Below, piece after piece: positions 5,969-8,897 of a DNA stretch of 64,000 bases (position 1 is the first letter of the stretch; each line of letters begins with the position of its first letter). Source of the stretch: Anaerosomatales bacterium. Its GTDB lineage: Bacteria > Actinomycetota > Coriobacteriia > Anaerosomatales > Anaerosomataceae. Location of the stretch: NCBI GenBank assembly GCA_030019445.1, contig JASEEU010000002.1:186995-250994 (forward strand), in the 5' to 3' direction. The notes under the pieces were generated by a model. The model made no database searches. It worked only from the letters and a program-made list of their open reading frames with translations, and was not told where the DNA came from. The translations under genes and the position numbers were made by a program.

Positions 5969-6484
5969 ATGCCTGAGGAGACCGTCCAGGATGTCGAACG
6001 CGACGAGTCCGCGCCGCCACGAAAGAAGACCAAGAGGCGGTGGATCGTCGTCGGTGTCCTGGCGGCGCTGGTCGTCGTCGGAGCAGCGGCGTTCGAGTAC
6101 ACGTCGACGCCGGGGTTCTGCGAGTCGTGTCATGAGATCGCCCCGTCGGTCGAAGGATGGCGCGCGTCCGCTCACGGGCAGGAGGACGCGGCCGACTGCA
6201 TGGACTGCCATGCGGATCCCGGTTTCGTCGGAGAGCTCGTCTCGCACATCGGCGGGGTCCAGGAGGCATACGTGCACATCACGGAGAGCCCCGACGAGGG
6301 TGACATCCGTGGAGAGGTGCCCGCCGATCGGTGCGTGGCATGTCACGAGGACGCGTGGGAGGACGAGGCGTTCGCTGCCGAGCACCCCACACAGGAGGCG
6401 CCGTGCGGCGTCTGCCACCGTGACAGCGCGCACACCAATCCGAAGCCGCTGTTCGAAGCGGCCGACGCCGAGGGAGGGGAGTAG
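5969..6484 (+). CDS. NapC/NirT-like membrane-anchored tetrahaem cytochrome c
   Basis: A 171-residue protein with a basic N-terminus, one membrane anchor (about 25-45) and four CXXCH haem motifs (CESCH, CMDCH, CVACH, CGVCH). The order TPGFCESCHEIAPSVEGW right after the anchor is typical of NapC/NirT/NrfH quinol dehydrogenases, which take electrons from menaquinol to an extracytoplasmic partner. The protein would sit on the outer face of the membrane. The ATG at 5969 has a very strong GGGAGGTGAT ribosome binding site. It is followed after two bases by the multihaem gene, so quinol-to-cytochrome transfer between the two products is the natural inference. Confidence 0.88.
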   Translation: MPEETVQDVERDESAPPRKKTKRRWIVVGVLAALVVVGAAAFEYTSTPGFCESCHEIAPSVEGWRASAHGQEDAADCMDCHADPGFVGELVSHIGGVQEAYVHITESPDEGDIRGEVPADRCVACHEDAWEDEAFAAEHPTQEAPCGVCHRDSAHTNPKPLFEAADAEGGE

Positions 6485-6486
6485 CC

Positions 6487-7857
6487 ATGGGTCAGACCGT
6501 CACACGCTACCGCAGGCTCGCCGCCTTCCTCGTCGTGGCGCTGGCGTTCGGTGCGCTCATGCTCGTGACCGGCTGCAGCGCTGAGCCCATCAAGCCCGCG
6601 GAGGGCGAGATGTCGTGCATCGACTGCCACACCGACCGCGAGGCCCTGCAGGCAAGCCTGGAGGCCGATCCGCTTCCCGAGAAAGAGGTCGCGGAGAGCG
6701 AAGGCGAGGGTTGAGGCGGCTCGTTGCCTCCGTTGGAGGCCGACCTGGGCGCGCTCGTCAGCCCCGAGTTCTTCGAGACGACGCACGGCAAGATGGACTG
6801 CCGTGACTGTCACGGCGGTGTGAAGTTCGCCGCAACGAGGGCTGAGGCGCACGAGGGCATGGAGCCCCTGCCTTCCAAGTCACTGACGTACGCCGAGTCG
6901 GTGTGCCAGCCGTGTCACACGGACATCGCCGAGAACATGGCGGCGAACCTGCACGCCGAGACGCCGGCCGTGTCCGGCACCGAGGACGCGATCGTCCTCG
7001 CCCGAGCGAGCGATCCGGAGATCGTCAAAGAGGGTCTCACGAACAACTGCTCGACCTGTCACGTGTCCGGCTGTGGAGACTGCCACGTCACCCGCCCGCA
7101 GTACAACGATGGCGGCTTCGTGCGCGGTCACGTCTTCTACAAGTCGCCCAACTCCTCCCTGAACTGCATGGGCTGCCACGGCAGCCGCATCCAGAAGGAG
7201 TTCACGGGTGCGGGCGAGAGCGAGAAGTGCGAGCTCACCGCGGACGTGCACTGGAGCCCCGGCGCGATGCAGTGCGTCGACTGCCATACGGTCGAGTGGA
7301 TGCACGGTGGGGAGCCCTACGCGTCTCGCTACGAGTCGCCCACGGCGCCCAAGTGCACCGACTGCCATGCGCAGGACGCAGCGTTCACATCCGTGAGCAT
7401 GCACTCGGCTCATGGAACGGCTGATTCCGACGTCTACCTGCAGTGCCAGGTGTGCCACGCGCAGGACTACAACAACTGCACGGCATGCCACGTCGCGCTC
7501 AACGACAAGGGACTGCCGTTCTTCGAGACCGAAGAGAGCTGGTTCGATCTCAACATCGGACGCAACTACGACCAGTCCGAGGACAAGCCGTGGGACTACA
7601 TCATCGTCCGGCACGTCCCGGTGGCCGAGAGCACGTTCGACTACTACGGCGAAGGCGCGCTCGGGAACTTCGATGCGCTGCCGACGTTCAAGTACGCGAC
7701 CCCGCACACCATCAAGCGCGTGACGCGGCAGACCGAGAACGGCTGCTCCAGCTGTCACGGCAACCGGGACATCTTCCTCACCGAGGACGATCTCCAGAGG
7801 CTGTCCGCTGCCGAACAGGCAGCTAACCAAGATGTGGTCGTGACCGAGATCCCGTAG
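6487..7857 (+). CDS. Eleven-haem c-type cytochrome lipoprotein with one in-frame UGA
   Basis: Read through, this is one 456-residue secreted cytochrome. Residues 1-31 are a lipoprotein signal ending in LVTGC, then one haem motif (CIDCH) and an acidic linker. A TGA at 6712-6714 interrupts the frame (EGEG-stop-GGS). The same frame continues with ten more CXXCH motifs (CRDCH, CQPCH, CSTCH, CGDCH, CMGCH, CVDCH, CTDCH, CQVCH, CTACH, CSSCH). The downstream part has no signal peptide of its own and could not receive haem in the cytoplasm, which argues for readthrough. Alternatives are a pseudogene, a sequencing error, or re-initiation at TTG 6724. It probably accepts electrons from the tetrahaem protein and passes them to an external acceptor. 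Confidence 0.75.
6715..6740 (+). promoter_or_regulatory. bSECIS-like hairpin after the in-frame UGA
   Basis: Directly after the UGA at 6712-6714 lies a perfect six-base-pair stem, GCCTCC (6726-6731) with GGAGGC (6735-6740), closed by the loop GTT whose first base is G. The loop begins 17 bases after the UGA. From what is known of bacterial SECIS elements (short upper stem, small loop with a G in its first two positions, about 16-37 bases from UGA) this geometry fits. A six-pair hairpin can occur by chance in GC-rich DNA, so the case is suggestive only. Confidence 0.4.
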
Positions 7858-7886: not shown

Positions 7887-8897
7887 ATGCAGGCAAAGAA
7901 GTGGTGGGTCCTCGCGCTCGCCATGGTGCTCGCGTTCTCGATGATCGCGGTGCCTGGCTGCTCGCCGGAGGATGAGCCGGCCGAGGAGCCCGAGGCGGAG
8001 GAGCCCGCACCGGAAGAGTCGTTCGACGCCACGCAGGCGATGATCGACGCCGCGAACGAGTACTTCAAGAACGATCCCGTGCCGACGATCGCCGCGGCCG
8101 ACCTGCTCACGATCGTCCAGAGCCAGGACCCCGGCTATCAGGTCGTGGACATCCGCTCGGCGGAGCACTACGCCCTCGGCCACATCGAGGGTGCGGTGAA
8201 CATCCCGTTCAAGCAGATCTACACCGAGGAGAACCTCGCCAAGCTCGACCCCAACAAGAAGATCGTCGTGGTCTGCTACACGGGTCACACGGCCTCCGAG
8301 ACCAACATGTTCTACAACATGCTCGGCTATGACGCCCTGACCCTGAAGTTCGGCATGAGCGGCTGGGTCGCCGACGAGGCCATCGTCGGCCTCCCCATCC
8401 CCGGCAAGGCGACGGGCGAGTACCCGACGGTGACCGAGCCCGTCGAGGCCGGCACGTTCGATCTTCCCGCGATCGAAGGCTACGAGGATGTCCAGGCGGC
8501 TATCATCGGCCAGGCCGAGAAGTACTTCGCGGCCGAGCTGCCCCCGACCATCGCGGCTGAGGACGTCTTCAACATCGTGCAGTCGGCGGACCCCGGTTAC
8601 CAGATCGTCTCGGTCCGTGCCGGCGAGGACTATGCCAAGGGTCATATCGCGGGCGCGATCAACATCCCGTGGAAGGAAGCGGCTGACAACCTCGCGAAGC
8701 TCGATCCCAACAAGAAGGTCATCGTGTACTGCTACACCGGCCACACCGGTGGCGAGGTCAGCATGTTCTTCAACCTCATGGGCTACGAGACCTACAACAT
8801 GAAGTTCGGCATGTCCGGCTGGCAGTCCGATCCGGCGCTCGGCGGCAACCCCGGCTACGATCCCGCAGCCGTGACCGCCAACCCGGTCGTCCAGTAG
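7887..8897 (+). CDS. Lipoprotein with two rhodanese domains
   Basis: A 336-residue secreted lipoprotein. The signal ends in the lipobox AVPGC (Cys25), followed by an acidic Glu/Pro linker. Two rhodanese domains (about 50-165 and 200-310) are near-duplicates, each with an active-site loop CYTGHT holding the catalytic Cys, and both retain the DPGYQ(V/I)V and GMSGW segments. Rhodaneses transfer sulfane sulphur, and selenium analogues are possible. It follows the 11-haem cytochrome by 29 bases and has its own AACGAAGGAGGAAGC ribosome binding site. The pairing suggests handling of a sulphur or selenium compound at the cell surface. Rhodanese-like lipoproteins also accompany Geobacter ext cytochrome conduits. 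Confidence 0.88.
   Translation: MQAKKWWVLALAMVLAFSMIAVPGCSPEDEPAEEPEAEEPAPEESFDATQAMIDAANEYFKNDPVPTIAAADLLTIVQSQDPGYQVVDIRSAEHYALGHIEGAVNIPFKQIYTEENLAKLDPNKKIVVVCYTGHTASETNMFYNMLGYDALTLKFGMSGWVADEAIVGLPIPGKATGEYPTVTEPVEAGTFDLPAIEGYEDVQAAIIGQAEKYFAAELPPTIAAEDVFNIVQSADPGYQIVSVRAGEDYAKGHIAGAINIPWKEAADNLAKLDPNKKVIVYCYTGHTGGEVSMFFNLMGYETYNMKFGMSGWQSDPALGGNPGYDPAAVTANPVVQ

Follow-up and report, generated by a model that had tools for sequence, protein, structure and literature searches.

Organization of the locus

The window, that is, the whole stretch of 64,000 nucleotides analysed here, is part of contig C16 of a 2.09-Mb genome of an Anaerosomatales bacterium (97.6% complete). On its forward strand, positions 6487..7857 form a single reading frame that is broken by one TGA only, located at 6712..6714. 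The part upstream of the TGA begins with an ATG behind a purine-rich ribosome site and encodes a lipoprotein signal peptide (6487..6576, lipobox LVTG-Cys30, read from the sequence) and one CXXCH haem motif. The part downstream of the TGA (6715..7854) encodes ten CXXCH motifs, ends at a normal TAG stop and matches PF14522 (E=3e-13) and, distantly, the ExtN model NF040967 (E=1.4e-10). With several CXXCH motifs and an export signal, the frame as a whole has the features of an exported multihaem c-type cytochrome. Read with selenocysteine (Sec) at the TGA, the product would be a lipoprotein of 456 amino acid residues with 11 CXXCH motifs and Sec76 in the motif GEG-U-GG, and we refer to the gene as the selenocytochrome gene. 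A preliminary description of this DNA had reported the lipoprotein signal and one haem motif in 6487..6714, ten further motifs up to 7857, a TTG at 6724 and a Gly-rich linker around the TGA between haem 1 and the rest, all of which we confirmed. It had also stated that the downstream part has no signal peptide; this holds, so that part alone could not be haem-loaded outside.

The gene is flanked by two others on the same strand. The upstream one (5969..6484) encodes a NapC/NirT (NrfH)-type tetrahaem membrane cytochrome of 171 amino acid residues (PF03264, E=9e-15), whose stop codon lies 2 bases ahead of the selenocytochrome start. This protein scored 64 bits against the NrfH model TIGR03153, below the cut-off, and is the probable quinol dehydrogenase partner. 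The downstream gene (7887..8897) encodes a lipoprotein with two rhodanese domains (PF00581, E=1e-35, over two stretches), each with the active-site loop CYTGHT. A tandem rhodanese lipoprotein with both loops intact adjoins the selenocytochrome gene in the same orientation in families f1 (the window, L034, L036 and L091), f3 (L090), f57 (L081), f111 (L082) and f114 (L083 and L084); next to the f5 gene, none was observed. The cassette consists of the NapC-type, cytochrome and rhodanese genes only, and its flanking genes vary between genomes: dnaX and recR follow in the window and in L036, others in L034. Genes of an ext-type conduit operon (ExtI porin, ExtM, Rieske/cytochrome b) were not found near the cassette, and no other ORF with two or more CXXCH motifs was found in the 64-kb window.

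Conservation of the UGA and of the frame around it

With the read-through protein as query, the gene was recovered from 9 other genomes of the order (50-72% identity), each with one TGA at the same site. A further 11 genomes, again all with TGA, came from profile searches that covered the class, the phylum and two other classes. The gene is thus present in 20 further genomes of several classes, with identity as low as about 36%, and three of these genomes were matched to named public assemblies. Its distribution at the order level is patchy (10 of 69 genomes). Altogether, there are 22 copies that include the site, from 21 genomes in 9 families; the codon is TGA in every one of them and never UAA or UAG. 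The residues G-U-G-G are invariant across the 22 copies, those directly 3' of the TGA, ahead of any start codon, are conserved like those 5' of it, and conservation of the protein is continuous across the UGA. All full-length homologues have the UGA, and their haem motifs are invariant (11/11 CXXCH in 19/19 copies). An in-frame UGA with conserved coding sequence on either side is a mark of bacterial selenoproteins.

In the tree, the copies fall into three groups, namely the window's own order, f54, and f55/57/111/114, the deep forks being resolved only in part. What lies upstream of the UGA differs among families. In f1, f16, f55, f57, f111 and f114 it is a lipoprotein; in f3 and f5 it is a membrane cytochrome of the NapC/NirT type, joined in frame; and in f54 it is a surface protein with SLH and two rhodanese domains. 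Behind all three N-terminal architectures, haem 1 is retained and the frame continues across the TGA. The copy in G005 has a second in-frame stop (TAG), which is the end of the upstream NapC gene, in frame by chance. Searches of plasmid and viral collections gave no relative of the selenocytochrome.

Two minor observations were made on individual copies. In f54 (L054, L065, L067 and L068), one ORF of ~1070 residues comprises S-layer anchor domains, a pair of rhodanese domains and the selenocytochrome, and the first rhodanese domain is without the active-site Cys. G068 has two near-identical gene copies on short contigs (L027 and L033), which are either strain variants or a real duplication.

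A Cys homologue was found in one fragment, L056 (G554), where TGT replaces TGA in the motif AGG-C-GGTAP. Its layout is that of the selenocytochrome: a lipoprotein signal, CXXCH, AGG-C-GG and further CXXCH motifs. L056 is a single incomplete fragment on an AT-rich contig (38% GC), and that contig is probably mis-binned in G554, an assembly without selA. Cys at the Sec position, here in one incomplete contig, is another mark of bacterial selenoproteins. The preliminary description had proposed to align homologues at 6712..6714, and the alignment gave UGA in 22/22 copies and Cys in this one homologue. We also considered L045 (G322, a genome with selA), a distant relative on a long branch and unsure in its tree place, which keeps haem 1. 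It was rejected both as a Cys homologue and as a counter-example, the Sec segment being absent altogether; its layout suggests that the Sec loop is a separable module.

A bSECIS hairpin downstream of the UGA

A hairpin, GCCUCC-GUU-GGAGGC, is located at 6726..6740 of the forward strand, its first base being the twelfth past the TGA. The perfect stem and the G-first three-base loop described previously were found at these positions, and the likeness to bacterial SECIS elements stands up against published rules. These rules ask for a loop of 3-9 nt, a stem of 4-16 bp, a G at loop position 1 or 2, a distance of 16-37 nt from the UGA and an MFE of -7.5 kcal/mol or lower (PMC13188914). The window hairpin has a loop of 3 nt (GUU) and a stem of 6 bp, its apical loop lies 17 nt past the UGA, and it folds alone at -9.1 kcal/mol. 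No known RNA family of Rfam was matched at the site.

All 22 copies have such a hairpin, with 5-9 bp, the loop 16-18 nt past the UGA and a G in the first two loop positions (loops GUU, GGU, AGUU, AGUUG, AGGUA, GUUC and CGUGCC). Pair +12 occurs as G-C and U-A, pair +13 as C-G and G-C, pair +14 as C-G and U-A, and pair +15 as U-A, C-G, G-C, A-U and U-G. As loop lengths differ, the registers behind these counts were set by hand for each sequence, and the counts therefore lean towards structure. In the ungapped alignment of the window's own order, where a single register was applied throughout, both bases change in two of the pairs, and its covariation score was reached by only 2 of 500 shuffles.

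When synonymous codons were randomized, an equally large stem with a G at loop position 1 or 2 arose in 19% of sequences if its position was free, and in 2% if the loop start was fixed at 17-19 nt past the UGA. By itself, the window hairpin was not significant in the loose, position-free test. The combined P was about 3e-12 for 13 sequences treated as independent, a value that is overstated because the sequences are related. The hairpin is significant because every homologue keeps it and its pairs covary. In L027 and L028 the automatic pick was another stem slightly upstream, and RNAfold draws the AGUU hairpin for both; that of L028 alone has -6.2 kcal/mol, weaker than the -7.5 of the model. 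In L030 and L053 the whole 45-nt segment folds otherwise, and the hairpin alone is stable.

Selenocysteine machinery and probable decoding of the UGA

The preliminary description had made the selenoprotein reading depend on the presence of selA, selB, selC and selD, and the host encodes all four. They lie within 6.3 kb on contig C16, with scores of 366 bits for selD, 608 bits for selA, 388 bits for selB and 73.9 bits for tRNA-Sec (selC), the last confirmed by ARAGORN. Among the UGA-bearing genomes tested, 13 of 15 have selA and the remaining two are 85-86% complete; in G798 and G801 the selenocytochrome gene is located a few kb from selA-selB. The host selD carries one in-frame TGA of its own. 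This selD (L018:1531, region of G000:C16:287738, outside the window) is a selenoprotein with the motif KSG-U-AAKW and a hairpin 3' of the UGA, and may be viewed as an internal positive control. TGA also ends ordinary genes here, namely a YbaB-like gene in the window, selA and selB. UGA is thus an ordinary stop in this host, and the code is standard plus Sec, not changed.

We are highly confident that the UGA at 6712..6714 is decoded as selenocysteine. Strong comparative evidence carries the selenoprotein reading, and from it we infer the recoding. SelB and tRNA-Sec would decode the UGA as directed by the bSECIS at 6726..6740, and the result would be one exported 11-haem lipoprotein.

The locus could otherwise hold two genes, a one-haem lipoprotein that ends at the UGA and a decahaem cytochrome whose translation starts anew, either at TTG 6724 or at the TTG or GTG seven codons past the UGA. 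In its favour, such a TTG or GTG is present in 11/11 copies checked; however, the last G of this codon is a base of the hairpin stem or closes the hairpin, which explains its conservation. Moreover, a separate decahaem product would have no signal peptide, the residues just past the UGA are invariant ahead of any start codon, the frame is kept in all copies, even behind NapC or SLH-rhodanese, and the Cys homologue is uninterrupted. A conserved stop between two separate genes, which the preliminary description had named as an outcome against recoding, was not seen, one frame crossing the UGA in all homologues. We consider two genes very unlikely. It is highly improbable, too, that the UGA is read as an ordinary residue (Trp or a near-cognate one) or that the code is changed. 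Such readthrough would agree with the occurrence of UGA alone at the site and with the kept context GGU/GGC-UGA-GG, but it does not agree with UGA ending ordinary genes in the host, with the co-occurrence of the Sec machinery and the gene, with a hairpin that fits the SECIS model or with Cys as the alternative residue. A pseudogene or an assembly error, for which nothing speaks beyond the in-frame stop itself, has a negligible probability and is excluded by the recurrence of the open frame, the UGA and its flanks in 20 other genomes, separately deposited public assemblies among them, and by haem motifs intact in all 19 full-length copies; the UGA is accordingly no sequencing artefact, a possibility raised previously.

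Under standard annotation, the gene is split into a lipoprotein cut short and a cytochrome that could not be exported, and its respiratory role would be missed.

Comparison with known systems

The best-known counterpart is ExtKL of Geobacter (GSU2937-2936), a predicted cytochrome-c selenoprotein (PMC1914089, PMC5877670, PMC6148476). Like the selenocytochrome, it is exported, multihaem and interrupted by an in-frame UGA in a host with Sec machinery, and its cluster also has a rhodanese lipoprotein (PMC6148476). However, five haems precede Sec in ExtKL and none has been reported behind it, whereas the selenocytochrome has one before and ten after. In 2007, neither a SECIS nor a Cys homologue was found for ExtKL (PMC1914089), and in this the selenocytochrome, which has both, differs from that account. 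Membership in ExtKL (NF040886) was rejected at 17.2 bits against a cut-off of 250, the match being a generic CXXCH stretch 3' of the UGA.

ExtN (NF040967), a decahaem protein of the ext selenite/tellurite operon, was the best NCBIfam match, at 40.6 bits against a cut-off of 200 and thus short of membership. Its ten haem motifs align over residues 96-441, which suggests a distant relationship of the decahaem part. The match starts after the Sec segment and haem 1, and this part therefore appears to be absent from ExtN. Sequence searches of the PDB returned nothing or short haem-stretch matches only; solved multihaem reductases are related to the selenocytochrome only via such stretches, and the selenocytochrome carries Sec. 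NrfH/NapC-dependent multihaem reductases likewise have a NapC/NirT-type quinol dehydrogenase beside or fused to a multihaem partner.

An inventory of 2026 with 119 prokaryotic selenoprotein families and subfamilies lists ExtKL and an octahaem cytochrome and none like the selenocytochrome (PMC13188914). The latter entry is the octahaem tetrathionate reductase family cytochrome (TIGR04315), given as Sec-containing (PMC13188914), and this model was not among the NCBIfam matches of the selenocytochrome at E<=0.1. On paper, a GUxG motif is common to the selenocytochrome and the 'hypothetical protein DG' (NF049953), whose model was unmatched at E<=0.1. The main text of the deep-Sep paper has no cytochrome candidate. 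The selenocytochrome has no NCBIfam model of its own, and the family may so far be unlisted in the open-access literature, a description elsewhere being possible. With it, the prokaryotic selenoproteome would gain a well-supported family among multihaem cytochromes, in which Sec is rare and unexplained. In contrast to the account of ExtKL, this family, here in Actinobacteriota, has a SECIS that covaries, a counterpart with Cys and a compact cassette. The earlier reading did not include the partner genes, the distant relationship to ExtN or the wide occurrence of the family.

Haem ligands and possible function

Outside the haem motifs, eight His residues are invariant in the 19 full-length copies and a ninth is conserved in the window's own order. 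With 11 invariant haem motifs, a distal His is thus not conserved for at least two haems. Apart from Sec, no other chalcogen residue outside the motifs is invariant. This ligand pattern fits a catalytic rather than a purely conductive cytochrome, and ExtN homologues of cable bacteria have been classed as potentially catalytic, with a five-coordinate haem (PMC11976967). That Sec is an axial ligand of one haem, or lies over its open face, as a selenolate-haem site for chalcogen reduction, seems unlikely to us. An AlphaFold2 model from four sequences had a pLDDT of 31 and a pTM of 0.17, too low to be of use.

Our best guess is that the protein, driven by quinol and dependent on Sec, reduces a chalcogen species (sulfane sulfur or perhaps selenite) in concert with the tandem rhodanese; reduction of sulfur or selenium species as such has, in our judgement, about an even chance of being the function. 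Electrons would pass from menaquinol to the NapC/NirT-type tetrahaem protein and on to the eleven haems, the selenocytochrome serving as the catalytic or terminal component of a small electron chain anchored in the membrane. The Cys of the tandem rhodanese at the surface would carry a persulfide (or perselenide) and act as a carrier. Sec76, in the conserved Gly loop between haems 1 and 2, would be the nucleophile and attack a chalcogen bond, either delivered by the rhodanese or in free polysulfide, thiosulfate, sulfur or selenite/tellurite. The haems would then give electrons, by which HS- or HSe- would be released and the selenolate regenerated. Respiration of thiosulfate, sulfur or Fe(III) occurs in cultured OPB41 relatives (PMC9686372), which suits chalcogen reduction, these isolates being compared by physiology alone. 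Such a coupling to rhodanese would be a direct and testable tie of selenocysteine to extracytoplasmic sulfur (or selenium) respiration.

A tandem-domain rhodanese with two active domains is reportedly present in Desulfitobacterium hafniense, an anaerobic respirer (cited in PMC6148476). It is likened to ours by description only, and here the partner is a selenocytochrome.

It is also quite possible, if somewhat short of probable, that recoding is right and the protein, instead of reducing sulfane sulfur, acts as a conduit in the reduction of extracellular Fe(III) or of selenite/tellurite, with a separate role for the rhodanese. The remote similarity to ExtN/ExtM in the ext cluster of Geobacter points this way, as do the impaired selenite and tellurite reduction of an extI deletion (PMC5877670), the rhodanese lipoprotein of that cluster (PMC6148476), SLH anchoring to the cell surface in f54 and respiration of Fe(III) by an OPB41 isolate (PMC9686372). 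However, Sec-free multihaem conduits are common, so a wire alone would leave the invariant Sec and the intact rhodanese sites unexplained.

One observation concerns the ext models themselves. The NCBIfam model NF040968 (FeS_ExtO, 416 positions) hits the CXXCH stretch that the ExtN model (415 positions) also matches, both in 6487..7854 and in L054. ExtO has been described as a 14.1 kDa Rieske protein (PMC5877670), and NF040968 looks mislabelled.
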